DNA from: Gallionellaceae bacterium
Lineage (GTDB): Bacteria > Pseudomonadota > Gammaproteobacteria > Burkholderiales > Gallionellaceae
Length of the DNA: 37,464 bases
NCBI GenBank assembly: GCA_004297065.1
Contig: SCUU01000102.1
Location: 1 to 37,464, forward strand
Direction: 5' to 3'
The notes under the pieces are model-generated. The model saw nothing but the letters and a program-made list of their open reading frames with translations. It made no database searches and was not told the origin of the DNA. Positions 826-35,570 of this stretch are shown here, piece after piece; within the stretch, counting starts at the first letter, position 1; each line of letters opens with the position of its first letter. The translations under genes and the position numbers were made by a program.

Positions 826-1379
826 TTGCTGGCCGACAATTCGGATTGTCCCTGGTGGAGATGATGGTTGCGGTCGTTATCCTCGGGATAATGATCGCTG
901 CCGCACTGCCGAGCTATCGCGGTTGGTCGGAAAATACGCAGATCCGCACTGCGGCCGAGTCCGTGCTGAGCGGTTTGCAGTTGGCGCGTGCGGAAGCCGC
1001 TCGGCGCAATACGAATGTGAGTTTCGCGGTCAACGGGAATAACTGGAGCGTCAATGTCCAGGCAACTGGCGCTGCGAGCGATGCGTTCTACACGCCCGCT
1101 GCCACCGTGCAAAGCAGGAATGGGACCGAAGGTACGCGGCATGCGCTGATTACGGCAACGCAGAATGCAATTACCTTCAACGGGTCGGGGCGCGTCACTC
1201 CCACCCCGGCAGCGAGCAGCGTTTTTGCAGTGACTAACCCTACGGGGGGCGCTTGCGCCACATCCGCAAATTTGAGTGGTATGCGCTGCCTGAATGTGGT
1301 GGTGGAGCCGGGAGGCAAAATCTGGATGTGCGATCCGGCATTGAACGGCAGCGGCAACCCTCAGGCGTGTGCCCCATGA
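819..1379 (+). CDS. fimT: Minor pilin FimT/FimU (GspH-type pseudopilin)
   Basis: The product is 186 residues from the GTG at 819. I prefer this to the upstream GTG at 792 because AAGAAGGA lies about 7-8 nt ahead of it, and it gives a normal prepilin leader (about 9 residues) ending in Gly before LSLVEMM. The hydrophobic helix follows, then a GspH/FimT-type beta-rich domain. A typical segment of this family, with LQLARAEAARRN near residues 50-60, is visible. FimT/FimU is a minor pilin of the assembly-priming complex, inserted in the inner membrane before pilus incorporation; some members bind DNA during transformation. It overlaps pilE upstream by 7 nt and pilV downstream by ATGA, implying translational coupling. 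Confidence 0.87.
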   Translation: MLIAGRQFGLSLVEMMVAVVILGIMIAAALPSYRGWSENTQIRTAAESVLSGLQLARAEAARRNTNVSFAVNGNNWSVNVQATGAASDAFYTPAATVQSRNGTEGTRHALITATQNAITFNGSGRVTPTPAASSVFAVTNPTGGACATSANLSGMRCLNVVVEPGGKIWMCDPALNGSGNPQACAP

Positions 1380-1837
1380 AGACTTCCCTATTGCATCGGC
1401 AGCAGGGCGCAATGCTTCTGGAAGCGTTGATGGGACTATTGATTTTCTCGATAGGCATTCTCGGTATGGTCGGCATGCAGGCGGCCTCGATTCAGAATAC
1501 CGCAGCCGCAAGCTACCGCACCGAAGCGAGTTACCTCACGAATCAGATAATCGGCACCATGTGGGCCGACAAAGCCAATCTGGCCGCGTACTCGTTGAAT
1601 GCGGGCGGCGCGCGTTGTGCGGCAGGCGCAAGCAACACGGCCAACCCGAGTTTGGCCGCTTGGTTGCAGAACGACGTGTCGCGTTTGCCCGGCAATGCCT
1701 CCGCTGCATCCGGCCTGCAGGGCTTGCAGCAGCAAATTGTGATCGGGGCAAACAATGTGGTTACAGTGACCTTGTGCTGGCAGGCGCCTAAAGATGCCAA
1801 CCCCCACAACTTTGTTGCCACGGCACAGATCAATTGA
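1376..1837 (+). CDS. pilV: Minor pilin PilV
   Basis: A 153-residue prepilin. The start at 1376 overlaps the fimT stop in an ATGA and gives a leader ending Gly before AMLLEALMGLLIF. Ala at +1 and Glu at +5 are acceptable to prepilin peptidase. The LLEALMGLLIFSIGILGMVGMQ helix is highly typical of PilV. The frame is open upstream to 1253, but that part overlaps fimT and gives no leader. PilV works with PilW, PilX and FimU in the complex that starts pilus polymerisation and carries PilY1. The downstream pilW begins 8 nt after the stop. Confidence 0.88.
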   Translation: MKTSLLHRQQGAMLLEALMGLLIFSIGILGMVGMQAASIQNTAAASYRTEASYLTNQIIGTMWADKANLAAYSLNAGGARCAAGASNTANPSLAAWLQNDVSRLPGNASAASGLQGLQQQIVIGANNVVTVTLCWQAPKDANPHNFVATAQIN

Positions 1838-1845
1838 GGCGCATC

Positions 1846-3078
1846 ATGGCGAACAGAACCGGCTACAAATGGATGCAGATGCGGGGGGCAGCCTCAGGTT
1901 TCAGTCTCGTGGAAATCATGGTGGGGATGGTGGTGGGCCTGATTACCATCATCGTCATCATGCAGTCTTTCGCTGCCTTTGAGGGGCAAAAGCGGACGAC
2001 CTCCTCCGGGTCGGACACGCAGGAGAACGGCTTGATCGCCCTGCAAGCAATAGAGGGGGATGCGCGCACCGCCGGGTATGGTTTGCTCACGCCTAAAGGT
2101 TTGGCTTGTACCTCAATGAATTATTACGAGGAGGGGGTAACTGCCGTGCCTGCGTCCGCTCCGGTTGCGCCTGTGGCGGTAGTCGACGGCGGTGCGGCAG
2201 GCGGCTCGGATACGCTGGTATTTACCGCCGCGACTTCACCCATTGCGGGCATGCCATCCAAGCTGAACGCCGATATGCAGACTGCACAGGCGGACGTTTA
2301 CATCGATAATTCTGTCGGATTCAATGTGGATAGGGATTTGTATTTGGTGGCCGCCCCCATTTTGTCTCCCGGAGTCGGGGCAGTAGAAACTCCCTGTTCC
2401 AGAATGGGCTATACCGAGAGGTGTCCTGCGGATACCGCGCTGCCGGAAGTGGCGTGTCCCGGAAAGGCTTTCCTTAGCGCGTCATCGCCCGTTGCGGTTT
2501 ACAACTCCTCGGATCCCAATTTTTTTCAGGCTGCGACATATCCGGCAAACAGCGGATTCGTAATCAATCTCGGTAGCGGGCTGAACGGTGCGGCAGGGTT
2601 TGCGCGCGCGCAGTACAGCGTGGTCAATACAGATTTGGTGGCGACAGATATGTCGCACATGGTCGCGCGAAATAGCGTAGTGCTGTCCGGCAATATTGTG
2701 AATATGCAGGTGCAGTATGGCGTAGCTCCCATCAATCCCCAGCCGGGAGCAAGCTCGCAGGCTGTCAATTGCTGGACGGATGCGCGGGGGAATGCCTGCA
2801 ATTCCGGCAGCGGCAACTGGGCCGCTCCGAATGCGTCCGACATCATGCGCATCAAGGCGATCCGCATTGCCATCGTGGCGCGTAGCTCATTGCGGGAAAG
2901 ACCTGCCACTCCCGGTGCCGCTTGCGACGCCACGACCGTTGCGCCGATTTCATGGGCGGGCGGCCCAACGATAGACCTGACCCCGAACGACACCGCTACC
3001 GACCAATGGCAATGCCATCGCTACCGCGTGTATCAGACCATCATCCCATTGAGGAACGTGATATGGGCAAATATCTAA
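1846..3078 (+). CDS. pilW: Minor pilin PilW
   Basis: A 410-residue prepilin starting at ATG 1846. GAGG lies 6 nt upstream; an in-frame TTG at 1834 would overlap pilV and lacks a good ribosome binding site. The leader is rather long (about 18 residues) and ends Gly before FSLVEIMVGMVVGL, the classical PilW helix, followed by a large mostly beta head. PilW is a core minor pilin that, with PilX, links PilV/FimU to PilY1. The length is at the upper end for the family. The stop overlaps the next gene, pilX, by 16 nt. Confidence 0.88.
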   Translation: MANRTGYKWMQMRGAASGFSLVEIMVGMVVGLITIIVIMQSFAAFEGQKRTTSSGSDTQENGLIALQAIEGDARTAGYGLLTPKGLACTSMNYYEEGVTAVPASAPVAPVAVVDGGAAGGSDTLVFTAATSPIAGMPSKLNADMQTAQADVYIDNSVGFNVDRDLYLVAAPILSPGVGAVETPCSRMGYTERCPADTALPEVACPGKAFLSASSPVAVYNSSDPNFFQAATYPANSGFVINLGSGLNGAAGFARAQYSVVNTDLVATDMSHMVARNSVVLSGNIVNMQVQYGVAPINPQPGASSQAVNCWTDARGNACNSGSGNWAAPNASDIMRIKAIRIAIVARSSLRERPATPGAACDATTVAPISWAGGPTIDLTPNDTATDQWQCHRYRVYQTIIPLRNVIWANI

Positions 3079-3722
3079 CCTCTATGCCTCCGGCAAAACG
3101 CCAGCGCGGCGTAGTGCTGTTTATCGCGCTTATCGCCTTGGTGGCGATGACCTTGGCGGGGCTTGCGCTGATGCGTTCGGTGGATACGGCAAACGTGATT
3201 GCGGGCAATTTCGCTTTCAAGGAATCGACCGTGCATGCCACAGATATCGGAACGGAGAATGCGGTAGCGGGCCTGGCCGCTATCGTTGGAGGGGCGGGCA
3301 ACGTTGCCAAAGCGTCTACCACCGCCTCGCCCATTCAATACTTTCCCGTGTGGCGGAACTTGAATGCGGCAGGGCAACCTATACCCGAACCGGTAAGCGC
3401 GCAAGGCTTGTCGCCTAACGTGGATTGGTCTGCCGTCAAAAAAGCGCCCATTAACGACCAGAGTGGCAACTACACCGGCAATGACGTCCAGACGGTTATT
3501 GAACGCATGTGCGATCCGATCCCGTCCAGCCCGAACGGGCCGGTACAGACCAACCGTAGCGACGTAACCGATTACTGTGTGACTGTGCCGCAATGCAGTC
3601 CGGGTGTTTCCATCAACACGCCGCCGTTCTGTGTGGCAGGGGATATCAATTACCGTATCACCACACGGGTGACGGGGCCGCGCGGCACGATTAGCGTCGT
3701 GCAGAGCGTCGTCACTATGTAG
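3063..3722 (+). CDS. pilX: Pilus assembly protein PilX
   Basis: 219 residues from ATG 3063, chosen because TTGAGGAACG lies just upstream; the open frame extends further 5' but inside pilW. The N-terminus has a basic stretch (PAKRQRG), then [34 protein letters not shown], the PilX N-terminal signature. This is a non-standard prepilin-like membrane anchor, often lacking the Glu-5 of normal pilins. PilX belongs to the minor-pilin complex and in several species influences adhesion and aggregation. It is followed after 14 nt by pilY1 with an AGGAGGT ribosome binding site. Confidence 0.85.
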
Positions 3723-3736
3723 CGCAGGAGGTCATT

Positions 3737-6700
3737 ATGAAGCTGAAACAATTTGTCCAGATGATCCTGTTGGCTAGCGTTGCTGCCAATGTGCAGGCGG
3801 TGACAATCTCGGACACGCCGATGGCGGTAAAGAATACCGCCAAATCCAACATCATGTTCACGGTAGATAACTCCGGCGGGATGGATGTGGACGTGTTGCT
3901 GACGACCTATAACTCCATGTATTACGAAACCGGTGTTACGCCGACCAATAATCCCTATAACCTCAACGGCAACTTTTATCTTTTGCCATCTGGATACCGC
4001 GAATCGCAGGGGTTGTCGGCGAGCGAGAAGCAGATGCTGGAAGGCGATTTGAATAGCCCCGACGCGAATCACTGGCGAGTGCGCAATTACCAATATAACG
4101 CGCAGTATTACAACCCTTTCAAGGTATATCAGCCTTGGCCGGGAACGAATATCAACGGCCTGCCTTTTCCCCAGGCAAACGAGACTCGCGCTCTTCTGAC
4201 TTCCCCCTTTATGGGAAGCGGGACGGCGATCGATCTAACGCAGACCATGACAAGTAATGTGGCGAGTAACTTTTATCAGAGCGGCGTCAGTGTTGCTTGG
4301 GTTCCGCCCCAAGCGCACACCTTTCTAAGCACAACAGGTGCAGATAGTACGTTTACAACGGGCGGACGCTTTTACGACAGCACCTGGTACCCGGCGGTCT
4401 ATTACAACTGGGTGGATGCGTCGCAATATGTATCCTCGATCACGGTACCTGCCGGTGGCGGGGGAAGCGGCTACACGTCGGCACCGACAGTAATAATCAA
4501 TGGGGGTGCCGCACCCGCCGGAGGTACCTTGGCGACGGCGACGGCGACCATCACAGGAGGTGTCGTTACGGCGATCACAGTGACCTCACCCGGATCGGGA
4601 TATGCCACGGCACCCGCAGTCGCTTTCTCGGGCGGCGGGGGGAGCGGTGCGACCGCAACGGCGAACGTGGGCGGCAACGGCGTCATGGACGTGGGGGAAG
4701 GAGTGCGTTACGAGATTAAAAATCCTGCTGTGTTTGGCGGGTGTACGCCGACGGATACTGCCGCGAAGATACCCGGTTGTGCTCCTGCCTGTGCGCTTGG
4801 CGTGAGCGCGCCATTTCCCGCCTGTCATCCGGCAACCTATCCGAACGGCAATACCTATGCGCAGGAGATTCAGAATTTCGCCAATTGGTTTCAGTATTAC
4901 CGTACCCCGCTGTTGTCCTTGCAGGGAGCATTGGGTAAACAGATAGAGACGCTGGGCGGTTCTAACGCGGGATTGATCAATTTGCAGTCGAAAATTGATT
5001 CGCCGTATTTGGCCATGCCCACTGGGGGATCGGGCTATCAATTTTTCGGTACGGTGGAAGACATGTCTGTGCCGGGCAACGTGACCCGGTTGCGCAATAA
5101 TTTGTATGCGATTCAGCCGAGTTTGTCCGACTGGCGTCAGCCTATTCATGAGCGCTTGCGCACCGTTTATGATTACTTCCGCGAAAGTACACCGCAAAAT
5201 GGCCATGCCGCGCCGCCGATCCAATACGCCTGCCAGCAGAATTTTCACGTGCTTGCAACGCCGGGGTTCCTGTTTGAGAATGGTCCGGGGGCGACAGGAT
5301 TCAAGAATTACTTTACCGGCCATACCCCCACCGGAATTCCGACAGCCAATTACGACGGAAACAAAGGGGTGCCCTATGCGGACGCCTATGACGATACTAT
5401 CGCGGATTGGGCGGGATATTTTTACAACCAGAACCTGCGTCCCGATATAGCGCCAGGCACCCCTCCGGCCACCCCTCTGGGACCGGTGCCGCTTACCCCA
5501 TCCGTACATGAAGACAATTCTTATCCGCACTTGACCCAGTATGTGATGGCACCGGGTGCGCAACCGACTTTGCAGAGCACCGGGCGCATGAACGGTACGG
5601 TTCTGGAGAAATTGAACCCGATGACCGTTGACCCATGGACAGTTACGCCTTCAATTACATGGCCGCAGCCGGTGTTTGTGGATCAAAGCACCGTGGATGA
5701 CTTATGGCATGCCACCGTCAACGGCAGGGGCAAGTTCGTGAATGACACCGATATTTATGGCGGGTTGAAGACGGTATTGAACGATATCTTCGGTCGCGTC
5801 GGTGCTTCTGCTGCGGTGGCGGTGAGCAATGCGAATATCAGTCCGGGAGACAATTTTTCTTACGCGTCGAGCTACAACTCGGGCAACTGGACGGGTGACC
5901 TGCAGTCCTATCCGATTGACTTGGCGACTGGCGCGGCGAGCTCCACCCCGCGTTGGATACCTTCGGCGCAACTCCAGTTGGACGCCTTGGTCCAGGCCAC
6001 CAGCCGCACGATAGCGACATACAACGGTACGAGCGGAATACCGTTCCGCTGGTCTTGTGCGGCACCTGCAACTTGTATCAACGCGACCATGCAGGCTTTA
6101 CTCAATTCACCCATGAGCCCCCCAGGCACGGCGGACGGTGCCGATGTGCTGGCGTTCCTGCGCGGCGATCGCCTATATGAAGGAATTCGCTACCGTACCC
6201 GCGGCCACATTTTGGGCGACATTGTCAATGCGGAACCGGTGATTTTGCGCGAACCCCAATTCGGATATGCCGATCCCGGATACACGAGTTACAAGACCAA
6301 CTACTCGCGGACCAACCCGCGCAAGAAAGTGGTGTTCCAGGCCGCCAATGACGGCATGATGCATGCCTTCGATGCGGGCAACGGTGCCGAGTTGTGGGCG
6401 TATGTTCCGGGCTTGCTGTTTAGTTCCCGCTTGGCGGCTTATCCGAGCACCAGCACTCTGGTCAATTTGAGTTTACGTACCGGCTTCTCGCATTTGTACA
6501 TGGTGGACGGCACGCCGGTGGCGGGAGACGCGGATTTCGACAATACGCGTTTCGGCACGAAAAGCAGCCCGGATTGGCGTGCGCTTCTGGTCGGCGGTTT
6601 GAACAAGGGCGGTTACGGCTACTACGCCTTGGACGTTACCGTGCCGGATAAAGCCAGCAACGCTTCGATTACCGCGTTGACCGAGGCGGAATTGGCGGCC

Positions 6701-7765
6701 AAGGTGTTGTGGGAATTTCCGAAGTTCGCATCGCCCAATCCCAATATCGGACGCAGCTACGGCAAACCCTACATCACCAAAACGAAGGCGGCGGGCTGGG
6801 TGGTATTGCTCACCTCCGGGTATAACAACGGAACCGATACCGGGGGGGACGGCAATGGTCATTTGTTTGTGCTGGACGCCAAGACGGGAGCGTTAATCAA
6901 AGACATTCCGACCACTGTGGCGGGTACGGCGGCGGGCACGTCAGCCGCCCCCAGCGGATTGGGGCAAATCGTCGGCTATTCGGATAATGCTTATCGGGAC
7001 AACACGGTCAAATTTGTTTACGGGGGCGACCTGCTGGGCAATGTGTGGCGTTTTGATTTGACCGGTGCCGCGATCTCCGACTGGAAAGTGGATTTGCTCA
7101 CACAACTGCTGGATGCGACCGGCACGCCGCAACCGATTACGACGACGCCGGCATTGGCGCTGGCAAACGGCAAACGCATGGTGTTTGTAGGGACGGGACA
7201 GTATCTGAGCGATGCCGATGTGACGAATACGCAGACGCAGAGTATGTACGGGCTGATTGATGCCTACGACCCGACGACTCCAGGTGTGTCGGCTACGATT
7301 GCGCCGCTGCGCAGCCAATTGAACCAGCAGCAGTTGGCGGCTACCAGCGCGACGTCGCGCACTATTACGCTGCAGACCGGGGTGGCTGCACCCAAAGGGT
7401 GGTATGTGGATTTCACCCTGACGAGCAAAGAGCGCGTAGTGACCGACCCGGCGATCGTGGTTAGCTCGCTGGTATTTACGACCAACATCCCCAGCAATGC
7501 AAACCCATGCAAGCCGGGCGGATCAAGCTGGTTTTACAGCATCGATTTCGCGACCGGGGGAATGATTGCCAACAGTACGGAAGCGGGCAAGTTCCTGGGG
7601 GATTCTCTTGCCAGCCGACCCATTCTGGTAAAGCTGCCGGACGGTAGCATTGAAGCCCTGGTGCGCCAGTCGGATGCAACAACAACTTCGCGAGGCGTTG
7701 TTGCGGGTGCGAGTTCCGGGGTCGCGCGGCGGGTTTCCTGGCGCGAAATCCGGCAGCAGCAGTGA
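3737..7765 (+). CDS. pilY1: Type IV pilus tip adhesin/assembly factor PilY1
   Basis: 1342 residues with a Sec signal peptide ([21 protein letters not shown]). The N-terminal part starts like the von Willebrand A region of PilY1, but its metal motif reads DNSGG instead of DxSxS, so a working MIDAS is doubtful. Around residues 235-315 sits a Gly/Ala/Thr-rich insert with two copies of a GSGYxxAPxV repeat. The C-terminal half (about 770-1340) is the conserved PilY1/PilC beta-propeller: [14 protein letters not shown], then [11 protein letters not shown], which resembles the EF-hand-like calcium loop known to control pilus retraction in this family, and the ending RRVSWREIR. PilY1 is secreted, caps the pilus tip and works with the minor pilins encoded just upstream. 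An AGGAGGT ribosome binding site precedes the ATG. Confidence 0.92.
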
Positions 7766-21112: not shown

Positions 21113-22516
21113 GTGCAGTGCAAATCGAGAGCGCCTATCTTGGAAACAGCTTCAGGAAATATTCGAAAAACAATCTCCGGATGCGGCGTGCATTCCTGCC
21201 TTCGCATGTTCGCGGCGGCCATCGTTTTTCAGATGTGCGCGTCACCCGTTTTTGCCGCAGGCGATTCGCCGAGTCTGGATGAGGCGCGGCGTCTGCTGGA
21301 TGAAGGCAGGGCCGAACAGTCGGCGGCGATTCTGGAACGCGACCTGCTGGAGCTTGCCGGAAATGCGGATTACGACTACCTGCTCGGTCTGGCTTGGTAC
21401 AAATCCGGTCAGAAGGCGAAGGCGATGTTCGCTTTCGAGCGCGTACTGATGGTCGCTCCCTCTAATGTCGATGCGCGGCTCAAGGCGGCGCAGATCAGCG
21501 TCGGGCGCGACGATGCGGCGTATGCGCGCGACTTGCTGGAGCCATTGTCGGTGCAGACGCTCGACGCCAGGCAGCAGCAGGAGCTGGCGCAGATACGCAG
21601 CGCGATCTCGGCGGCCTCCTCCAATAAGCCGCTCGCGGTGCGCGGCTACCTGCTGGGCGGTATCGGTTGGGACGACAACGTGACCAGCGGGCCGAACCAG
21701 ACCGCACTGCTCATCCCCGGACTCGGCCCGACGGCGACGGCACTGGGCACGGCGACGCGCGACAAAGACATGGCCGGTTTCGCGGAGGCCGGTGCGGTCA
21801 TGCAACAGGCCGTCGGCGAGGACACTTGGTTGACGGGCGATGGCAGCTTGCATCAAGGCTTCAACCGCCGGCGCAACGATGTGACCGACAGTTATGCCAA
21901 CCTCAATCTCGGCGTGCTCGAACGCAGCGGCGGCGAATATTTCGGCGCGGCGCTGATGGGGCAAAACTACCGGATCAGGAACACGACCTATCGCGACACG
22001 GTGGGCGGGCGTTTGAACTGGGTGCATCCGGTCGGCGGCGAGTCGCTGCTGACCACATATATCCAGCGACTCGATTTTACCTATCCGCTCAGTTCGGTGG
22101 ACAACGCCGCGCGCAGCATCCTCGGCATGATGTACGAATCGGCACTGGGCGGGGGCGGGGCGTTGCAGTGCGGTGCCTACGGCGGCAGGGAGGCGGCGAG
22201 CAGTGCGCACTCCAGTTATCGCCTGAGCGGCGCCAGTTTGGGCGGCAGCACCATGTTGGGCAAGGATATCGCACTCTCCGCCGGTGCGCTGTACGAGCGG
22301 CGCAACTACGATGCGGTGGACGCCCTGTATCTCTACACGCGAAAAGATTCCGCATACAGTTTCGGGCTCGCCGCCGACTATCAGATGGGTGAGCGCTGGC
22401 ATCTGATCCCGCGCTACACCCACACGCGCAACATCTCCAACATGGAGCTGTACGACTACACCCGCAACGCTTTCATGCTCCAACTCAGATGGGACTTCGA
22501 TAATGAAAAAGACTGA
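21113..22516 (+). CDS. Outer-membrane protein: N-terminal TPR plus C-terminal beta-barrel (Slam-like layout)
   Basis: 467 residues from GTG 21113; the true start may be further in (GTG 21188 gives a cleaner signal peptide ending PVFA/AGD). About residues 50-170 are helical TPR units (DEARRLLDEGRAEQSAAILERDLL, then YLLGLAWYKSGQKAKAMFAFERVL). From about 185 to the end, alternating amphipathic strands begin with RGYLLGGIGWDDNVTSG and finish with a strand ending in RWDF just before the C-terminus, consistent with an outer-membrane barrel. TPR plus about 280-residue barrel is the plan of the DUF560/Slam proteins that bring lipoproteins to the surface, but identity with Slam is inference. The last 14 nt overlap the FecR gene. 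Confidence 0.75.
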   Translation: MQCKSRAPILETASGNIRKTISGCGVHSCLRMFAAAIVFQMCASPVFAAGDSPSLDEARRLLDEGRAEQSAAILERDLLELAGNADYDYLLGLAWYKSGQKAKAMFAFERVLMVAPSNVDARLKAAQISVGRDDAAYARDLLEPLSVQTLDARQQQELAQIRSAISAASSNKPLAVRGYLLGGIGWDDNVTSGPNQTALLIPGLGPTATALGTATRDKDMAGFAEAGAVMQQAVGEDTWLTGDGSLHQGFNRRRNDVTDSYANLNLGVLERSGGEYFGAALMGQNYRIRNTTYRDTVGGRLNWVHPVGGESLLTTYIQRLDFTYPLSSVDNAARSILGMMYESALGGGGALQCGAYGGREAASSAHSSYRLSGASLGGSTMLGKDIALSAGALYERRNYDAVDALYLYTRKDSAYSFGLAADYQMGERWHLIPRYTHTRNISNMELYDYTRNAFMLQLRWDFDNEKD

Positions 22517-23351
22517 TTCGATCCTGGGACTGCCGGCTTTCGCGCGGCAGTTATTCGCAGTCGCGCTGCTCTGCATGGCGCTGCATCCCGCGTTGGCGGA
22601 GGAGACGGCGGGCGTGATATTGGCCTACACCGGCGAGGTGGCGATACAGCGCGGTGAAGAGAAACGCCCGGGCGCGAAACATGCCGATCTGTTCAGCGGC
22701 GATACTATTGTCACCGGGGAAGGTCAGGTGCAGATACGCTTCGTCGACGGCACTATGCTCACCCTGTATCGCGATACCAGGTTCGCCGTGGACGATTACC
22801 GCTACGGCAAAGGCAACGGTGACCGGGCGCAGTTCAGCCTGCTCAACGGCGTGATGCACACCCTCACCGGCGAGATCGACAAGAAGAACTATCTGCTCAA
22901 AACGCGCCTCGCCAATCTCGGCGTGCGCGGTACGGAGTATTCGGTGCAGCTCGATAATGCGATGCATGTGAGTGTGGATCAGGGCCGTGTCGAACTTGTC
23001 AACGCGGGCGGCACGGTGCAGATCGGGGCGGGGCAAAGCGCCATCATCACCGGGCCCAATGTGATGCCCAAGCCGTCGATGGGCGGCAAGATCAATCTGC
23101 GTTTGCACGGTCCCGGTGCGGGCATGGGACGTAGGGGTGAGCCGCAGCCCGGGTCTGCGCCCGGCGGCATGCGGCCACCCGGCGGAGGGATGCCGCCACA
23201 TGGAGGCGGCGGCACGGCAGGTGGAGCGACCCCGCCTCCGCCGCCGCCAGCAGGGACGCGGAATCTGTCGCGCCAGCAAGGCGGACAGCAAACCCCGGGC
23301 GGAGGATTGCCCCCGCCGGGCGGTTTGCCGCCGCCTCCTCCGGGGCCATGA
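22503..23351 (+). CDS. FecR-domain protein with Pro/Gly-rich tail
   Basis: 282 residues. A long signal peptide (about 1-32, ending ALHPALA) is followed by a FecR domain at about 45-185: GDTIVTGEGQVQIRFVDGTMLTLYRDTRF, then LLKTRLANLGVRGTEYSVQ, both hallmark segments. Unlike classic FecR it has no N-terminal cytoplasmic segment for a sigma factor, so it is an exported single-domain version. Residues about 205-282 are nearly all Pro, Gly and a few Arg/Gln, probably disordered and perhaps spanning the periplasm or peptidoglycan. Neighbours are an outer-membrane barrel upstream (14-nt overlap) and a CHASE2 cyclase 22 nt downstream. Confidence 0.85.
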   Translation: MKKTDSILGLPAFARQLFAVALLCMALHPALAEETAGVILAYTGEVAIQRGEEKRPGAKHADLFSGDTIVTGEGQVQIRFVDGTMLTLYRDTRFAVDDYRYGKGNGDRAQFSLLNGVMHTLTGEIDKKNYLLKTRLANLGVRGTEYSVQLDNAMHVSVDQGRVELVNAGGTVQIGAGQSAIITGPNVMPKPSMGGKINLRLHGPGAGMGRRGEPQPGSAPGGMRPPGGGMPPHGGGGTAGGATPPPPPPAGTRNLSRQQGGQQTPGGGLPPPGGLPPPPPGP

Positions 23352-23373
23352 GGTCATTCGAAGTTGACCGGGT

Positions 23374-25551
23374 ATGACTGACACACCGCCCAATCAGCAA
23401 CGCCGGTCGCGCTTTGCCGCGTTTGCGTTGCGCGTGCTGCTCCCGGCTACCGTAATCGCGCTGGCTCTGCTCGTCCAGTTCACCGACCCGCAGTTCCGCG
23501 CGCGCATACGCGAGAACGCTTTCGACCAGTTGCAGTCGTTCGCGCCTTTGCCGTATCGCGACGAGTTGCCCGTCCGGGCGGTCGCCATCGACGACGCGAG
23601 TCTGGGCGGCATCGGGCAGTGGCCGTGGCCGCGCACTGTGCTGGCCGACCTCATCGACCGCCTCACCGCGATGGGCGCGCGCGTGGTGGCGCTCGACATG
23701 GTGCTGGCGGAGCCGGATCGCACCTCGCCCGAACAGGTGGCCGCGTTCTGGCCCAAACAGCGCGCCTTGCAGGACACGCTCAGACACATCCCCCCGCACG
23801 ACCAGGTGCTGGCACAGAGTTTTGCGCGCAGCCGCATCGCCATCGGTTTCCCCATCGAGCCCGTCGCTGTCAGCGCGACGCTGCCGCCCGCCAAAGCGCG
23901 CTTTCTCGGTTACGGCGGCGATGCCGGAGCGTGGCTGCCGCATTACGGTGGCGGCCTCGCCAGCCTGCCGCAGCTCACTGCCGCAGCGGCGGGCAGCGGC
24001 GCGATCTCGCTGGAACCGGGCAGCGATGGCGTGCTGCGTGCGGTGCCGCTGTTGTATCAAGTGCGCGATACGCTTTATCCCGGCTTGGGGCTGGAGGCGC
24101 TGCGCCTGTTCGGCGGTTTCGACAATCTCGCGCTGCAAGTCGCCGCGCCTGCCACCGGCAAAGTGCCCGGCATCGTCGGTGTCGGTTTGGGTGAGAATGC
24201 CTTTCTGCCCACCACGCCCGACGGGCAGGTCTGGCTGCATTTCCGTCCGCTGGCAGCGGAACGTTATGTGTCGGCGCAAGATGTGCTCGCGGGCAAGGTC
24301 GATGCGGGCAAGATCAAAGACCATATCGTATTCGTCGGCGCGACCGCCAAGGGTTTGGGCGATAACATCTACAGCCCGCTCGGCGAACTTATTCCCGGCA
24401 TCGAAGGCCATGTGCAACTGGTGGAGCAGTTGCTGACCGGAGACACGCTGCTGCGCCCCGCATGGGAGAACGATCTGGTGGCGGCGACGCTGCTGCTCAC
24501 CTGGCTGGCGCTGTGGTGGCTGCTGGCGCGCTTGCGTCCGGTGTGGTCTGTATTGCTCACAGTGGCGGTGGCGGCGGGCTTGCTCGGCTTATCCGTGTGG
24601 CTGTTCGCGGCGCGGCAATTGCTGTTCGATCCGTTCTATCCCGCGCTGGCGGTGAGCGCCCTGTTCCTCGTGCTGATGGTGCCGCGCTATCTGCAAACCG
24701 AATGGGAGCAGCGCTGGATACGCGATGCTTTCTCGCGCTATGTCTCGCCCAACCGCGTCAAGCATCTGCAAGAGAACCCGCAGGAGTTGGCATTGGGCGC
24801 GGTGTGCCGCGAGTGCTCGTTCGTGATGACGGATTTGGAGGGCTTCACGCCGCTCATGGAAAAATACGCGCCGGATATGCTGGCAAACCTGCTCAACGAA
24901 TATCTGGAAGGCATGATCCAGATCGCCTTCCGCCACGACGGCACGCTGGATCGTATCGTGGGCGATGCGGTGGTGGTGATGTTTTCGGCACCCCTGGTGC
25001 AGCCCGACCATGCGGCGCGCGCCCTGGCCTGCGCCCTGGAGATGGATGCGTTCGCGCGCGATTGCGCGCGCCGCCAGCGCGAACAGGGCATCCCGTTCGG
25101 GCGCACGCGCATCGGCGTCAACACCGGCAACGTGCTCATCGGCAATTTTGGCGGCAAGACCATGCTCGACTACCGCGCGCTGGGCGACCCCATCAACACC
25201 GCCGCGCGTTTGGAATCCATCAACAAACAGCTCGGCACGCACATCTGCGTGAGCGGCGCGACCGTGGCACAGTGCGCGGGATTCGCCGGCAGGCCGTCCG
25301 GGCGTCTGGTGCTGAAAGGCAAGACCGCAGCCATTGCCACCTACGAGCCGCTCACGCCGGAGCAGATGGGGCATCCGAACATCGTCGAATATCTGGACGC
25401 CTATGCGTTGATGGAAGCCGCATCGTCCGGTGCAGCGGAGGCGTTCCGGCAATTGGCGGAACGCTATCCGGACGATCCGCTCGCTGCCTACCATGCGAAA
25501 AGACTGGCGGCGGGAGAGCGGGGCAGCACCGTGGTGATGACGAGTAAGTAG
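23374..25551 (+). CDS. CHASE2 sensor / class III nucleotidyl cyclase
   Basis: 725 residues. TM1 is at about 20-33; a large extracytoplasmic CHASE2 domain follows (about 45-350, with VRAVAIDDASLGGIGQWPWPRTVLADLIDRL, ARVVALDMVLAEPD and DHIVFVGATAKGLGD). Three membrane helices (about 365-432) lead to a cytoplasmic class III cyclase domain at about 475-650. Metal-binding Asp487 (MTDLEGFT) and Asp531 (VGDAVVVMF) are present, as are the transition-state Asn and Arg in DPINTAARLES. The lysine that usually reads adenine (DKxxGD) is Arg527. CHASE2 senses an unknown periplasmic cue; the cyclase would make cAMP (or less likely cGMP). It is the last gene of the barrel-FecR-cyclase cluster. Confidence 0.92.
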   Translation: MTDTPPNQQRRSRFAAFALRVLLPATVIALALLVQFTDPQFRARIRENAFDQLQSFAPLPYRDELPVRAVAIDDASLGGIGQWPWPRTVLADLIDRLTAMGARVVALDMVLAEPDRTSPEQVAAFWPKQRALQDTLRHIPPHDQVLAQSFARSRIAIGFPIEPVAVSATLPPAKARFLGYGGDAGAWLPHYGGGLASLPQLTAAAAGSGAISLEPGSDGVLRAVPLLYQVRDTLYPGLGLEALRLFGGFDNLALQVAAPATGKVPGIVGVGLGENAFLPTTPDGQVWLHFRPLAAERYVSAQDVLAGKVDAGKIKDHIVFVGATAKGLGDNIYSPLGELIPGIEGHVQLVEQLLTGDTLLRPAWENDLVAATLLLTWLALWWLLARLRPVWSVLLTVAVAAGLLGLSVWLFAARQLLFDPFYPALAVSALFLVLMVPRYLQTEWEQRWIRDAFSRYVSPNRVKHLQENPQELALGAVCRECSFVMTDLEGFTPLMEKYAPDMLANLLNEYLEGMIQIAFRHDGTLDRIVGDAVVVMFSAPLVQPDHAARALACALEMDAFARDCARRQREQGIPFGRTRIGVNTGNVLIGNFGGKTMLDYRALGDPINTAARLESINKQLGTHICVSGATVAQCAGFAGRPSGRLVLKGKTAAIATYEPLTPEQMGHPNIVEYLDAYALMEAASSGAAEAFRQLAERYPDDPLAAYHAKRLAAGERGSTVVMTSK

Positions 25552-25608
25552 GAGCGCGAGTTGTCGCATATACTACCGTCCGAGATTTGAAAACGAGAGG
25601 AGATGATC

Positions 25609-26076
25609 TTGTCAGATACACCCGTTGAACTCACCCTTGAATATGCCGCCAAAACCGTCAAGCAACTCATGCGCGAACGCGACACCAAGATACTCGCCGA
25701 CATGCAATGGATGAGCGGCAACATGCAGCCGACCGAGAGCGAAGCGGCAGCGCTCGCCAAAGAGCGCGACAGCAAGATCGCGCACCGCAATCAGGTGCTG
25801 TATTGCGTGGGCATGCTGGACAAAGACGAGTTCAGATATTCGGACATCGAAGCGCTCATCCGCCAGCGCTTTCCCCAAACCAACCAAGGGACGGTGCTGA
25901 ACGTGGCGCATGCCATGTCGGAACTGGCGAGCGACACGGCAGGCATTTTGAAGCGCACGCCCAAGGGCGACGGCTACATGCTGAAAGACCCGGTGTTCCG
26001 CACCGCCATCGGCAATTTGCTGCGTTGCGCGGACGATAGCGAGACAGTGGAAAAAGTCGGCGGCGGCGGTAACTGA
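25609..26076 (+). CDS. Conserved hypothetical protein
   Basis: 155 residues from TTG 25609. I prefer this to ATG 25603 because GAGGAG (25597-25602) then sits 6 nt upstream, whereas it abuts the ATG. The protein is soluble and mainly helical; the first half is highly charged (KTVKQLMRERDTKILADMQWMSG), and the second half contains a winged-helix-like stretch (YSDIEALIRQRFPQTNQGTVLNVAHAMSELA, then GILKRTPKGDGYMLKD), where a short basic beta wing seems to follow helices. DNA binding is therefore possible, but I do not recognise a named family. It is not overlapped with the cyclase gene (57-nt gap) and a MITE-like element lies just downstream. Confidence 0.6.
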   Translation: MSDTPVELTLEYAAKTVKQLMRERDTKILADMQWMSGNMQPTESEAAALAKERDSKIAHRNQVLYCVGMLDKDEFRYSDIEALIRQRFPQTNQGTVLNVAHAMSELASDTAGILKRTPKGDGYMLKDPVFRTAIGNLLRCADDSETVEKVGGGGN

Positions 26077-26126: not shown

Positions 26127-26294
26127 TTAAGGGCGCTTCTAAAAATGCAGATTTCCCCCGGATGCGAGGCGCGGAAAAAAATTTCGGGCATCTGTTGCGC
26201 GGCTTGCCCGCTTACCCCGCTGCCCCAACGCGGCATAACCGGCTAGTTGTTTCATCAGTTGGGATGAAATATGGATTTTTAGAAGCGCCCTTAA
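26127..26294. mobile_element. MITE-like element with perfect 20-bp terminal inverted repeats
   Basis: The left end is TTAAGGGCGCTTCTAAAAAT (26127-26146) and the right end is its exact reverse complement (26275-26294), enclosing about 128 bp with no coding capacity. Total length is 168 bp. The terminal TTAA may include a duplicated TA or TTAA target. The element has no transposase and would have to be moved in trans. Its right end supplies the TAA stop of the GGDEF gene on the minus strand. Confidence 0.8.
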
Positions 26295-27235
26295 TACTTT
26301 ACGCAGTTACGCCCCCCGGATTTCGCGCGATACAGTTGCGCATCGGCAGCGGCGATCAGCGACTGTGCCGTGACACCCGGCCGGTTCATCGCCAGCCCGA
26401 CGGAGATGGTGATGCCGGGTAGCTCGGCACCCTCGCTGGAACATATCTTCTTCTGTGCCGTGTTCTGGCGTATGCGCTCCGCCGCCACGATGGCCTCTTC
26501 CTTGTTTGTGTTCGGCAATATCACCAGAAACTCTTCGCCGCCGTAACGCGTGGCGAAATCGTAAGGGCGCACCGTCGTCTTGAGCACATTGCCCATCGCG
26601 ATGAGCGCCTGGTCGCCGCCCAAATGTCCCTGCGTGTCGTTGTATTTTTTAAAGTGATCCACGTCGATCAGCAAGATGCACAAAGGTTGCTCGCCTTTGT
26701 CCGCCTGCTCCAGCAGACGTGCCAGCGCGTTATCCAGCCAGCGGCGGTTGTAGAGCCCCGTCAGCGCATCCACGTTGGCGTGGTCGGTCAGCTCCCAAAT
26801 CTGCATACGGTCTTTCACGATGCGCTGCGTATTCGCCCGCATCCACTGCGTCATCAAGCGCAGCAGATTGCCCGCGACCGGGCTGGTGCTGGCGACGAGG
26901 TCGTGCAGCAGATCGCGGTGGATGGGGAACACGCGGCTGTTCTTCCGAGCGATAACATAAGCGGAAGGCGGCGTGCCGTCGATGATGGAAATTTCCCCGA
27001 CCGAAACGCCCTTGTTCAGTTCGCGTATCGGCGGTGTATCGAGCGAGCCGAAATGCACATCGAGCGTGCCCGAGAGCAACAGATAGAGATGATGATTCTC
27101 TTTGTCCGGCGAGAGCAATATGTCTCCTGCGAGCAACTCCATCGGGTCGGATTGCGCCATCACCAGATGGACGATTTCTTCCGGCACATCGCGGAACAAT
27201 TCGGACTGCGCCAGTTCTTGAGCCAAAGCACTCAT
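26291..27235 (-). CDS. Diguanylate cyclase with N-terminal cNMP-binding-fold domain
   Basis: 314 residues. About 10-125 form a CRP-like beta-roll (GEISIIDGTPPSAY as the phosphate-binding cassette), and about 150-314 a GGDEF domain: DALTGLYNRRWLD, DVDHFKKYNDTQGH, and the active site GGEEF at 232-236. An allosteric I-site RPYD (R223-D226) lies five residues ahead, so an active, feedback-inhibited diguanylate cyclase is expected. The beta-roll lacks the Arg that holds the cyclic phosphate in CRP (Pro-Pro-Ser instead), so it may bind another ligand or none. A ribosome binding site (AAGGGA) precedes the ATG. The stop codon falls in the terminal repeat of the adjacent MITE, so the natural C-terminus may have been altered there. 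Confidence 0.9.
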   Translation of the reverse strand: MSALAQELAQSELFRDVPEEIVHLVMAQSDPMELLAGDILLSPDKENHHLYLLLSGTLDVHFGSLDTPPIRELNKGVSVGEISIIDGTPPSAYVIARKNSRVFPIHRDLLHDLVASTSPVAGNLLRLMTQWMRANTQRIVKDRMQIWELTDHANVDALTGLYNRRWLDNALARLLEQADKGEQPLCILLIDVDHFKKYNDTQGHLGGDQALIAMGNVLKTTVRPYDFATRYGGEEFLVILPNTNKEEAIVAAERIRQNTAQKKICSSEGAELPGITISVGLAMNRPGVTAQSLIAAADAQLYRAKSGGRNCVKY

Positions 27236-31735: not shown

Positions 31736-32906
31736 TCACGCCGCTTTGGTCTTTAGCGGTATAACCGTTGCCCCGCGTTGTGCGGCGGCAAGTTGCTTCC
31801 CCCACCACTGAAACAGTTTTACCCGCTCATCAAACCGTTCGCCCCGGTCATAGGCGCGCGCGACTTCGTTGTCGTGGGCATGGTCTAGGGCAAGCTCCAC
31901 CACGTCGCGCGCAGTGCCGTTGCCGCGCGCCAGCGTGGAAAATGAACTGCGCCAGCCGTGGGGCGAATGTTTTCCATCCAGCCCCAAGGTTACGCGGTAC
32001 ACCTTTTCGATGGCTTCGCGTCCGATGTGTTTCCCCCCGGCAGGAGAAGGGAACACATAGCCTTTGCCGCCGAACACGTTTTGCCATTGGCGCAACTCGG
32101 CGGCGATTTCCGGGCACAGGGGGATGCGGTGGTCTATGGGGCGGGAAGTGACTTTCATTTTTGCGCGCGGCACGATCCAGACGGGTTGGTCGTCGTTCAG
32201 GTGAAACTCTTTCCACACGGCATTGACCACGTTGCCGATGCGCATGGACGTAAAGGCGCACAGGCGATGCGCCATGCGCACGGCTGGGGACAGCCGCGCC
32301 ATATCCGCACGGCGCAGCACATCGCCCAGCGCGGCATAGCCCCTTGGCTTGGGCGTAGCGAAAAACGCCGTTCAGGTGCTGGAGGATGCGGGTGGCGGTT
32401 TCGAGTACGTCGCGCTTGTGGATGTCTTCAATGGCTTTTGCCACGATGGCGGGGGTGATGCTGGCGATGGGCAGCTTGCCGATGGCCGGGTAGATGTCGC
32501 GCTCGAATGCCCGCGCGGACTTGGTGTAATGGCCTGCGCTCCATTCCTTTTGCTTCATCGCCAGCCATACGTCCGCGACGGCCTCGAAGGTGTTATCGCT
32601 GGATGCGCTGGTTTCCGCCCGGTTGATGCGGCGCTGGGTGACGGGGTCTTTGTTTTCCCGGAGTAGCGCTTTGACCTCGCCCAACTCGATACGCGCCGCC
32701 GCCAAGGAAATGCCGGGGCAAGTGCCGATGGAATAAATCTTCTCCTTGCCGTCAATCCGGTACTGGATGCGCCAGTTGGCTCCCCCGGCAGGCGTGATAA
32801 AGAGATACATCCCCCCACCGTCTGGAAGCTTTTTTCCATGCGCTTTTCGAGCAACGAAGGCTTTGCAAGCCTTGCCCTTCAACCTTCCGCCGATACCCCC
32901 AGACAT
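31736..32906 (-). pseudogene. P4-type tyrosine integrase, broken by deletion/frameshift
   Basis: The 5' part (from ATG 32906, with a GGAGGA ribosome binding site) encodes the DUF4102 arm-binding domain (LPDGGGMYLFITPAGGANWRIQYRIDG) and the core-binding domain to FRYAQAKG. The 3' part, in another frame (downstream of about 32340), encodes the catalytic domain: Arg in FTSMRIGNVV, HGWR in SPHGWRSSFSTLA, then LDHAHDNEVARAY with the nucleophilic Tyr. At the junction about 25-30 residues expected between the two domains are missing and the frame changes, so a full-length enzyme cannot be made. The gene lies about 150 nt from the ssrA 3' end, as usual for site-specific island integrases. Confidence 0.82.
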
Positions 32907-33011
32907 GATTTTTCCTCCGGTTCAATTTTGTTTGATACCCCCATCGCGCTAGGATGCAACCGGATTTTGCAGGACAGCAACGGATAATGAATACGCGGAA
33001 ACACAAAGAAA

Positions 33012-33034
33012 AACGCCGTCTCTAGGACGGCGTT
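33012..33034 (-). terminator. Rho-independent terminator of ssrA
   Basis: AACGCCGTC and GACGGCGTT form a perfect 9-bp stem with a TCTAG loop. Read on the minus strand it is followed by TTTCTTTGTG. It lies 20 nt beyond the tmRNA 3' CCA. Confidence 0.88.
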
Positions 33035-33054
33035 GAAACCCGTTGGGGTATTGT

Positions 33055-33423
33055 TGGTGGAGGCGGCGGGAATTGAACCCGCGTCCGCGAGCACTCTACA
33101 AGTAGTTCTACATACTTAGTCTGGTTATTTGATTTTATCCCGCAGACGCCAACCGACAGGCTGCTACAGGACGAGTCACCTTGGTTTTAGCTTCGTACAA
33201 AGTAACCCTGCACGACACGATTCTGTGTAATGACCTCACTCATCGCGGCATTGCGGCCTTGAGCCCCTCCACAGACAGCAGGGTGTGAGGTCTAACCGGT
33301 TAAGCGGCTAGAGCGTACTTTTCGTCGTTTGCGACTATTGGTTTTCCAGCTGATTTACGAGGTTGCGGGTCCTCGGTATGCCCTACGTTGCTTTGCAACC
33401 CACGTCGAAGCCAGGTCGCCCCC
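33055..33423 (-). ncRNA. ssrA: Transfer-messenger RNA (tmRNA, one-piece)
   Basis: The RNA is about 369 nt. The 5' end GGGGGCG-ACCTGGCTTCGACG pairs with CGCCTCC before the encoded ACCA end, with a G3-U70 wobble pair (the alanine identity element). The T-arm is CGGG-TTCAATT-CCCG. The tag reading frame on the minus strand (33332 down to 33300) is GCA AAC GAC GAA AAG TAC GCT CTA GCC GCT TAA, giving ANDEKYALAA, whose LAA end is a degron for ClpXP. With SmpB it rescues stalled ribosomes. A TACAAT -10 element lies upstream (33451-33456), implying a 5' leader removed by processing. Its 3' end is the likely island target. Confidence 0.97.
33062..33083. repeat. Candidate att site within ssrA
   Basis: GGCGGCGGGAATTGAACCCG plus two bases is the reverse complement of the tmRNA T-arm. 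It is repeated with two mismatches at 27364-27385. The integrase gene is adjacent. Confidence 0.5.
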
Positions 33424-33477: not shown

Positions 33478-34866
33478 TTAGGCGGCTTTGTTGTTTTGCA
33501 GGAAGCGCGTTACGTGGCGGTCGGCTTTGGTGGAATGGGAGGAGAACCAGTCGAGCAGGAGTAGCCCGATGCGGAACGAGAGGTAGCGCGGATCGTCGAT
33601 GCCGGCCAAGGTCTTTTTTTCCAGTTCCTGGAAGTTTTCGATGAAGCGCTTATGTTCTTGCAAGTGGCTTTCGGTGAAGGGGTAATGGTGTTGTTGCATC
33701 AGCTCTTCTTCGATGCGGAAGATGTTTTGGGTGTGCTCGGTGAGGAAGGAAAAGATGTCGCGAAAGCTGGCGGTGTTGCCTTGTTTGACCTGCGAGGTGA
33801 AGACGTTGATCTGGTCGAACAGTTTGCGGTGTGCGTCGTCGAGCGGAGCGAGACCGGTGAGGAATTCGTCTTTCCAGACCAGGCCGATGTCGAGTTCGCC
33901 CGTGCTCAGGTGGTGTCCGGTGGCTTGGTATTCGTAGCAACGTTCGAGATAGATGAGGGCGGGGAAGTCGTTCGGCGCCATTTCTACGCATTTCTTGAGC
34001 AGCCCGATGGCGCGCGGGATGTCTTGCAGGTGGTAGAAGGCGATGGCCTCATCGAATAAGGGTTGGCAGGCCAGTTTGCTGTTGCGCAGTTCCGCCGGGT
34101 CGTTGTCGAATACTTCGTAAATGGAGAGCGGTTGCGCTTTGCCTTTGACGCGGATGCGGTCGAGGAAGCGGATGTGGTACCGCTCCGGGTGGGCAAGGTC
34201 GTACAGGGTGTTCTGGCTGATGATGAGCGGCGCGTGGTAGGTTTTGGTGGCTTCTTCCAGCCGCGCGGTCAGGTTGACTGCGTCGCCGATCACGGTACTG
34301 TCCATGCGGTTGGTGCCGCCTACGGTACCTATCATCACCATGCCGGTATTCAGACCGATGCCGATCTGGATGGGGATGTAACCGGCGCGAACGCGCCCCG
34401 CGTTGTAGAAACTCAGGCGTTCCAGCATGGCGACGGCACCGCTCACCGCATCGTCCGCGCCGTGGGCGAACAGCGCCATGATGGCATCTCCGATGTATTT
34501 GTCGATGATGCCGCGATGTTTGCTGATGACCGGCTCCATCTGGCTGAGATAGGAGTTGATGAACTCGAAATTCTCGGTCGGGGTCATCGACTCGGACAAT
34601 GGCGTGAAGTCGCGGATGTCGGAGAACATGATGGTCATCTTGCGCTCGACCTGGTCGCCGAGCTTTACGTCGACGATGCTCTTGACCTCGAGCAGGTTGA
34701 GCAACTGGTGAGGGACCAGACGGCCATAAGCGATCTCGGTTTGCTGGAGCAGGGTCAATGCTTGCTGATGCGCGTAAATGACTTTGTGGAGTATTTCCTG
34801 AAGGCTGTCCGGAGTGGGCGCAACGGGAGCTTGGTCCTTCCCCGCTTGTTGGCTCTCGTCGTTCAT
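33478..34866 (-). CDS. Class III nucleotidyl cyclase fused to a hemerythrin-like domain
   Basis: 462 residues from ATG 34866 (GGAGCGGAGC upstream); the frame is open further 5' but into gph. The cyclase domain lies at about 75-250: Asp83 (MFSDIRDF), Lys123 and Asp127 (DKYIGD), Thr191 in TVIGDAVNLTARLE, Asn198 and Arg202, all consistent with an active adenylate cyclase. A TPR-like stretch (about 268-312) leads to a bacteriohemerythrin domain at about 325-457: His346, Glu386, His401, His405, His444 and Asp449 fit the diiron ligand spacing, but the expected second His is Ile382, with His378 one helical turn earlier. There is no membrane helix, so it is cytosolic. It may couple oxygen, redox or nitric oxide to cAMP. 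It is the third gene after ubiG and gph (50-nt gap). Confidence 0.88.
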   Translation of the reverse strand: MNDESQQAGKDQAPVAPTPDSLQEILHKVIYAHQQALTLLQQTEIAYGRLVPHQLLNLLEVKSIVDVKLGDQVERKMTIMFSDIRDFTPLSESMTPTENFEFINSYLSQMEPVISKHRGIIDKYIGDAIMALFAHGADDAVSGAVAMLERLSFYNAGRVRAGYIPIQIGIGLNTGMVMIGTVGGTNRMDSTVIGDAVNLTARLEEATKTYHAPLIISQNTLYDLAHPERYHIRFLDRIRVKGKAQPLSIYEVFDNDPAELRNSKLACQPLFDEAIAFYHLQDIPRAIGLLKKCVEMAPNDFPALIYLERCYEYQATGHHLSTGELDIGLVWKDEFLTGLAPLDDAHRKLFDQINVFTSQVKQGNTASFRDIFSFLTEHTQNIFRIEEELMQQHHYPFTESHLQEHKRFIENFQELEKKTLAGIDDPRYLSFRIGLLLLDWFSSHSTKADRHVTRFLQNNKAA

Positions 34867-34916
34867 GCTCCGCTCCAGAAATATTTTCTTGTTGTGGCAA
34901 AAATGGTACCGCCCGA

Positions 34917-35570
34917 TTACGCTTCCATGTAACGCAACAATTCGAGCGGGGTCCGCACGGCTCCTGCCGCCCGCCAGGTGGAAAGCTCGGCTTGCGGGTC
35001 GATGTAGCCATATCGGGCGATGATACCGCGCATATTGGCCGCATTGGCGGCTTCCATGTCGCGTTTGTCGTCGCCCAGATACAGGCAATGTTCGGGGGTT
35101 ACGCCTATCGCTCGGGCCGCATGCAACATGGGCAGCGGATGCGGCTTGGCGTGGGCGCAGGTGTCGCCGCTGACCAGACAGGCGGCACGCTCGGCATAAC
35201 CCAGTGCCTGCATCAGCATCACGGTGAAGCGATGCGGCTTGTTGGTGACGATGCCCCAAGGCAGGCCGCGCTGCTCGATGGCGCTGACCAGTTCGGTCAT
35301 ACCCGCGAACAAAGTGGTGTGGACGCAGATATTGGCGGTGTAGTGCGCGAGGAATTCGAGGCGCAACGCATCGAAGCCGGGGTCTTCCGGCGTGATGCCG
35401 AAAGCCAGGCCCAGCAACCCGGCTGAGCCGTGCGAAGCTTGCGGGCGGATGCTTTCCGGCGGCAACGGCGGCTTGCCGTGCAGTGCAAGCACATGGTTGA
35501 GGGCGGCACCGAGGTCGGGCGCGGTGTCGGCGAAGGTGCCGTCGAGGTCGAACAGGACTGCTTTAATCAC
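34917..35570 (-). CDS. gph: HAD-family phosphoglycolate phosphatase
   Basis: 217 residues. HAD motif I is [12 protein letters not shown] (Asp nucleophile and Asp acid), motif II includes Thr in IVTNKPHR, motif III is Lys in AKPHPLPML, and motif IV is [12 protein letters not shown] helical cap sits between motifs I and II. Gph hydrolyses 2-phosphoglycolate formed during DNA repair or oxygenase activity. The start is GTG 35570, overlapping the ubiG stop by 8 nt, the usual ubiG-gph arrangement of many betaproteobacteria. Typical length. Confidence 0.92.

Follow-up and report, generated by a model that had tools for sequence, protein, structure and literature searches.

The 37,464-nucleotide stretch of DNA considered here (Gallionellaceae bacterium, assembly GCA_004297065.1, contig SCUU01000102.1, positions 1 to 37,464; called the window in the following) carries on its forward strand three tightly spaced genes, which encode a SlipAM-like outer-membrane barrel with tetratricopeptide repeats (TPRs), an exported FecR-domain protein and an inner-membrane CHASE2 receptor with a class III cyclase domain. 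Sequence comparisons identify this trio as a real, recurrent and patchily distributed unit. By analogy with the NsrA-CyaK system of Sinorhizobium meliloti, it may form a trans-envelope relay with the receptor split over two proteins, the output of which would pass through the product of a neighbouring gene, a protein with a cyclic nucleoside monophosphate (cNMP)-binding and a GGDEF domain, to cyclic di-GMP (c-di-GMP); the probability of this reading is estimated to be approximately 0.5. Few routes are known by which an event at the outer membrane reaches a second-messenger enzyme and, if the proposal is true, the system would be a compact, split one, with a separate gene, open to individual testing, for each of receptor, periplasmic relay, cyclase and effector.

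Gene organization and domain structure

Features, with positions in the window, strand and identification:
21113..22516, +, gene of the TPR and SlipAM-like outer-membrane barrel (Pfam SlipAM, 35.3 bits; weak TPR; TPR-like helices predicted)
21269..21622, +, predicted periplasmic TPR-like helical region of the barrel protein, mature residues 6-123 (AlphaFold2, block predicted local distance difference test (pLDDT) 63-94)
22503..23351, +, gene of the exported FecR-domain protein (PF04773, 55.5 bits)
22701..22994, +, FecR domain (PF04773 match)
23151..23348, +, Pro/Gly-rich tail of the FecR protein (64% Pro + Gly)
23374..25551, +, gene of the CHASE2-class III cyclase (PF05226, 185.9 bits; PF00211, 62.8 bits)
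23458..24525, +, CHASE2 domain (PF05226)
24811..25329, +, class III cyclase domain (PF00211)
24952..24954, +, Arg527 codon of the cyclase; Lys in most CHASE2 cyclases (alignments)
25174..25176, +, Arg601 codon of the cyclase; Thr or Ser in most CHASE2 cyclases (alignments)
26291..27235, -, cNMP-binding and GGDEF protein, proposed cyclic-nucleotide reader (PF00027, 42.1 bits; PF00990, 158.3 bits; linkage and co-occurrence)

The preliminary description of this DNA had placed the three genes close together, with these domains and with products predicted to span all the envelope layers, which is borne out in each respect; it makes no mention of the two Arg residues, of the cNMP-GGDEF gene or of the common pairing of barrel and FecR in the absence of CHASE2. 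The barrel and FecR genes share 14 bp, and the cyclase gene begins 22 bp past the FecR stop. The GTG at 21113 is probably too early as the start of the barrel gene, because the position of the signal peptide would place the true start near 21188 or 21209. The SlipAM (PF04575) score of the barrel protein exceeds the cut-off of 22, TPR_2, at 22.1 bits, stays below its cut-off of 27, and the N-terminal TPR model of Slam proteins (PF24575) gave no match at E 0.1 in the Pfam search. In the AlphaFold2 model the first 120 mature residues are predicted to form helical TPR-like hairpins (block pLDDT as listed), and the barrel half of the protein is modelled, from a two-row alignment, with low confidence (blocks at pLDDT 21-42).

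The FecR protein, the predicted structure of which has a mean pLDDT of 34.6, has a hydrophobic segment at residues 6-27, no lipobox seen by eye, and the Pro/Gly tail at its C-terminus. Such a tail (28-68 residues, 57-67% Pro + Gly) is present in each of the five FecR proteins that are complete among the orthologous trios described below, that of the window included; the sixth (L063) is broken by a contig end and was left out of the count. In the cyclase protein, one hydrophobic segment (12-37) precedes and three (367-387, 388-414 and 416-436) follow the CHASE2 domain. Sequence searches of the PDB returned matches to the cyclase domain only for the cyclase protein, to TPR designs only for the barrel, and for the FecR protein a single weak match to an antifreeze protein (E 0.0077).

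Distribution of the trio

An orthologous trio with the same gene order was found in six of 158 genomes of the family, the window included, with the copy of G432 spanning two contigs. The cyclases of these genomes are at least 69% identical, and the next best match in the family is at approximately 31-32%. Among the named relatives found, the nearest is a metagenome-assembled genome (MAG; L021) of Sideroxydans, with a cyclase 91% identical to that of the window. FecR alone is unsuitable as a probe because it is present in 123 of 300 genomes of the order. In a search of the class, 12 of 369 genomes, the window included, pass E 1e-85, and all 12 non-self places (L147-L158) were examined. FecR lies at most one gene from the cyclase in eight of them (L147, L148, L149, L152, L154, L155, L157 and L158) and at 2.8 kb in L156; L150, L151 and L153 gave no FecR match with our own profiles. 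The barrel profile is also matched in L148, L152, L154, L156 and L158. In L152 (4420-8387) each of the three genes is fragmented, and this trio is probably a decaying copy.

In a survey of the phylum Pseudomonadota, 104 of 160 genomes were CHASE2-positive, and the 60 best-scoring loci among the matches listed were examined, a sample that omits three rows of G000 and one place of G049 (the same as L147). FecR was found within 5 kb in 17 of the 60 against approximately 0.9 expected, the latter being a Poisson expectation from the FecR density of the window genome alone (5 per 3.1 Mb; this draft of 343 contigs has five CHASE2 and five FecR matches). Six of the 17 loci also have a barrel match (L161, L162, L169, L190, L200 and L216), and in L162, L169 and L200 the order is barrel, FecR, CHASE2 on one strand, with CHASE2 and cyclase in separate frames in L169. 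Proteins with GAF and HD_5 domains adjoin two of these trios (L162, 11308-12969, -; L169, 4100-5803) and are perhaps related to the phosphodiesterase of the Campylobacterota cluster discussed below. Elsewhere, FecR immediately precedes a CHASE2 cyclase in L145 (G364), and the trio of L105 is in convergent arrangement.

These locus labels come from mechanical gene calls and from profiles built on the same loci, several of which end at contig ends; only some of the labels were cross-checked with Pfam. In loci outside the family, a SlipAM barrel has Pfam confirmation in L216 alone (66.6 bits); TPRs and no barrel model were matched in L148, L154, L158, L161, L162 and L200; the Slam TPR model was matched below its cut-off in L216 and L161; and the barrels of L190, L169 and L156 are labelled by our own profile alone.

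The proposed conservation across genomes thus holds in part: the trio recurs in the family and in other families, but its distribution is patchy and the close cyclase homologue L022, described below, comes without barrel and FecR. A chance neighbourhood of the three genes, or simple co-transcription with no joint function, would fit the low number of family genomes with the trio and the lack of FecR at the 24 other family CHASE2-cyclase loci, for which the flanks are short. However, the retention of gene order in the trio genomes, the trios of other families, the enrichment of FecR near CHASE2 and the combination of FecR and TPR in the single protein NsrA make this explanation very improbable.

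The cyclase active site and the Arg/Arg clade

As initially proposed, the output enzyme is a cyclase; it belongs to class III, and alignments show the catalytic residues, namely the two metal-binding Asp residues and the Asn/Arg pair, all in place. In CHASE2 adenylate cyclases, the positions that specify the base are occupied by Lys and by Thr/Ser (or Asp). The window cyclase departs from the Lys and Thr/Ser pattern with Arg527 and Arg601, which, from work on class III cyclases, we take to be the two base-choice positions. Among 95 CHASE2 cyclases from the examined loci, the Arg/Arg sequences form one clade of 15 (FastTree, support 0.994), and the remaining 80 comprise 68 Lys/Thr, nine Lys/Ser, two Arg/Thr and one Arg/Ser enzymes. 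Trios are found with Arg/Arg and Lys/Thr cyclases alike.

The product of the window cyclase may not be cAMP, and the clade is a defined one whose product deserves to be measured rather than taken to be cAMP. As to a possible pyrimidine cyclase, one paper contains, in the portion available, nothing that assigns an Arg/Arg pair; the searches of open PMC papers found none on the Arg/Arg clade or on its link to cNMP effectors. The clade and this link are the new points of the analysis, and both are testable.

A second class III cyclase is encoded in the window at 33484-35562 (-), in which a cyclase domain (63.3 bits) precedes a hemerythrin domain (35.8 bits) and, by eye, the base-specifying positions hold Lys and Thr; it is possible that this protein is an oxygen- or iron-responsive cyclase.

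The cNMP-GGDEF neighbour

The gene of the cNMP-GGDEF protein ends 739 bp past the cyclase gene, on the opposite strand. An open reading frame (ORF) of 157 residues with no Pfam match lies between the two (25603-26076, +); the corresponding gap in L062 measures only approximately 240 bp and has no such ORF. The cNMP-GGDEF gene also adjoins the cyclase gene in L021/L062 (G440), L026 (G432), L065 (G317) and, divergently, L022. Orthologues at 61% identity or more are found in seven of the 158 genomes, namely the six with the trio and G379, the next best match being at 41%. The co-occurrence with the trio has a hypergeometric P of 3.6e-10, which ignores relatedness, and the figure of six out of six overstates independence because G361 and G365 are closely related.

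More generally, a cNMP ORF lies within 5 kb of the cyclase in eight of 15 Arg/Arg loci, compared with three of 50 loci of other CHASE2 cyclases (Fisher P 1.5e-4, again with relatedness ignored). The cNMP partners vary, being a cNMP-patatin protein in L147 and a cNMP-protein kinase in L148 according to Pfam; the cNMP label of L168 comes from our own profile, without a Pfam check. In the alignment of the cNMP-GGDEF proteins the GGEEF and RxxD motifs are conserved.

Comparison with known systems

On pSymB of S. meliloti (L121), a protein of 1,219 residues with FecR (57.2 bits) and TPR domains is encoded by a gene overlapping the start of that of a CHASE2 cyclase, in agreement with the 2018 work of Garnerone et al., which is said to place nsrA just upstream of cyaK. 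The L121 protein is 99.8% identical to the nsrA-annotated one in CP140934.1. The parts available of PMC7529298 and PMC13001267 describe a protein signal for which NsrA serves as receptor in the outer membrane and CyaK as the cognate cyclase in the inner membrane, with the barrel portion of NsrA at residues 600-1200 (PMC7529298). As in the window, the coding sequence for FecR, TPR and an outer-membrane barrel immediately precedes that for a CHASE2 class III cyclase. Unlike in the window, where the domains are split over two proteins, NsrA is a single protein with the order FecR-TPR-barrel, and CyaK has Lys/Ser where the window cyclase has Arg/Arg.

A cluster of genes for a CHASE2-cyclase, FecR, TPR and phosphodiesterase proteins in Campylobacterota has been proposed to represent one pathway in the portion available of PMC9239204; by description only, it differs from the window in having a phosphodiesterase where the latter has a cNMP-GGDEF neighbour. 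The preliminary statement that no relay of this kind has been characterised was thus too strong, NsrA-CyaK being a characterised two-protein relay. The relay idea itself is already known, and the window version would be the one in which the receptor is split into two proteins.

A precedent for the effector side is provided by XC_0250 and XC_0249 of Xanthomonas campestris, for which, in the part available of PMC3770947, a class III cyclase gene is linked to a cNMP-GGDEF gene and cGMP raises c-di-GMP synthesis. The gene linkage is like that of the window, L021/L062, L026, L065 and L022. The cyclase domain of XC_0250 spans residues 1-220, and CHASE2, present in the window cyclase, goes unmentioned in that part. 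Orthology was discarded, the XC_0250 active-site set being Ala150, Leu157 and Ala161, where the window cyclase keeps Asn and Arg and has Arg601.

The Burkholderia BiofilmReg operon, in what is available of PMC5192318, resembles the window in a FecR-domain periplasmic protein encoded next to a CHASE2 receptor. It differs in that the former is a LysM-FecR protein and the latter a histidine kinase with a response regulator, and that neither TPR nor barrel is mentioned in that portion.

With Slam proteins of type XI secretion, the window barrel shares the SlipAM match and N-terminal TPR-like helices, but not the Slam TPR model, and its neighbour is a FecR protein in which no lipobox was seen; plain membership of the Slam group was discarded, with the barrel model the only one matched. 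The open PMC papers found include none pairing the SlipAM name with FecR. In FecI-FecR-FecA, a FecR domain is likewise placed between a barrel of the outer membrane and an output on the inner side, but the FecR protein of the window carries a signal-like segment at its N-terminus and matches no model other than FecR. No ECF (extracytoplasmic function) sigma factor was seen among the neighbouring ORFs (by eye, with partial Pfam coverage), and a classical Fec sigma system was discarded; the Pfam matches include no TonB-receptor family, the barrel matching SlipAM instead.

Proposed relay and its weight

In the proposed mechanism the TPR barrel would reside in the outer membrane with its periplasmic TPR domain docking the exported FecR protein, which would in turn contact the periplasmic CHASE2 domain. 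A change in the barrel would be passed through FecR to CHASE2 and switch the cytosolic cyclase. The reader of the product, which need not be cAMP, would be a protein with a cNMP-binding domain. In the window this would be the cNMP-GGDEF protein encoded nearby, which would turn the cyclic-nucleotide signal into a c-di-GMP one. Whereas the genes, their order, domains and conservation, the Arg/Arg clade and the linkage to cNMP genes can be read from the comparisons above, all the protein contacts, the direction of signalling, the nucleotide and the cNMP-GGDEF response are inferred. The relay reading is based on analogy with NsrA-CyaK, in which FecR and TPR are joined in one protein encoded upstream of CyaK.

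Several observations weigh against the proposal. A Comamonadaceae MAG (L022) has a cyclase 75% identical to that of the window together with the cNMP-GGDEF gene, and the 9.4 kb of contig seen contain no barrel and no FecR gene. All 24 other CHASE2 cyclases of the family (L029-L052) have no FecR within flanks of approximately 1.2-1.4 kb. The cNMP-GGDEF gene lies elsewhere in the genome, away from the trio, in G361 and G365, and in G379 it is present with no cyclase match at E 1e-20. Of the eight cNMP-linked Arg/Arg loci five are close orthologues, the distant members contributing three of eight (L147, L148 and L168). By eye, the cNMP domain has Pro where cNMP domains usually have the Arg that contacts the phosphate. 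Our barrel profile does not match NsrA, and a search for the window barrel in plasmids found nothing. In S. meliloti, SMc02177 (FecR) and SMb20495 (TPR) are described, in the source material available, as tested and dispensable for signal perception. Finally, barrel-FecR pairs are far commoner in the family than trios and mostly occur without CHASE2.

Barrel-FecR pairs and the export alternative

Among family loci found by barrel similarity, a FecR gene lies within 300 bp and on the same strand for 57 of the 63 ORFs that encode a barrel, and several of the other six are near contig ends. CHASE2 appears at these loci only in the orthologous trios, in the convergent L105 and in L086 (contig C85 of the window genome), where it lies 4 kb from a barrel without FecR. 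Because the pairs so outnumber the trios, they may serve another role, such as export, and this common pairing, along with the SlipAM match, makes export the main rival explanation. Proteins with a FecR domain would be brought to the surface by a Slam-like TPR barrel, with the Pro/Gly tail, or C-terminal parts of greater length, as the passenger, and the CHASE2 cyclase would only monitor or regulate export. The SlipAM scores of the window and L216, the range of FecR partner sizes (approximately 226 to 1,822 residues) and the gene before FecR in L149, of the ShlB/POTRA_2 two-partner-secretion kind, also point in this direction. However, the window barrel gives no match to the N-terminal TPR model of Slam proteins at the threshold given, the FecR protein appears to lack a lipobox, and NsrA is reported as a receptor in the available parts of PMC7529298 and PMC13001267, so that export is considered possible but doubtful as the main role. 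The relay and export readings would be joined if the TPR barrel and FecR together made up a unit of the outer membrane that CHASE2 cyclases have recruited in certain lineages.

Very long FecR proteins (approximately 1,330-1,822 residues) are encoded directly after TPR/SlipAM-like barrels in L108 (70-5535, -), L103 (8637-12641) and L120 (1075-5235, -). In that of L108 Pfam recognises the FecR domain only, and these proteins are possibly surface proteins exported by the barrel. In six loci (L068-L073, e.g. L070, 8238-10409) a gene for a protein of approximately 720 residues, TPR-looking by eye, follows barrel and FecR as the third gene of pairs without CHASE2.

Possibly exchangeable outer-membrane partners

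The genes accompanying FecR and CHASE2 vary. Besides the ShlB/POTRA_2 gene that precedes FecR in L149, FecR and cyclase are separated by an OmpA-domain gene in L193 and L213, both of the Arg/Arg clade, and L147 has such a gene two genes before its cyclase. Because of these differences, FecR-CHASE2 may be a constant core with an exchangeable outer-membrane part, and such variety would make the pair a general adaptor. It has also to be considered that FecR-CHASE2 itself senses the periplasm or the cell wall, with the barrel as an accessory or anchor and no outside signal. FecR adjoins CHASE2 without a barrel match in L145, L149, L155, L157 and several survey loci, the OmpA-domain partners of L193 and L213 would suit such a function, and so would the LysM-FecR and CHASE2 kinase operon of PMC5192318, as far as its available portion goes. 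With the barrel and FecR genes overlapping in the window, and FecR, TPR and barrel united in NsrA, this explanation is regarded as unlikely.

An extension of the proposed relay, put forward as a tentative idea with the odds against it, is that the CHASE2 cyclases with the Arg/Arg pair constitute an enzyme class of their own, whose private messenger would be some nucleotide different from cAMP. They would be wired to exchangeable FecR/outer-membrane receptors (TPR barrel, OmpA-domain or two-partner-secretion type) and to exchangeable cNMP effectors (GGDEF, protein kinase or patatin lipase), and the Gallionellaceae would have the complete chain from the outer membrane through a cyclic nucleotide to c-di-GMP.

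Other features of the window

A tmRNA gene (33055-33423, -) adjoins an ORF that by eye resembles an integrase (31848-32906, -), and the region 31848-33423 is likely a mobile-element insertion site. Prepilin-like and pilus-assembly-like ORFs, recognised by eye only, are found within 379-7765 (379-825, 1834-3078 and 3737-7765).

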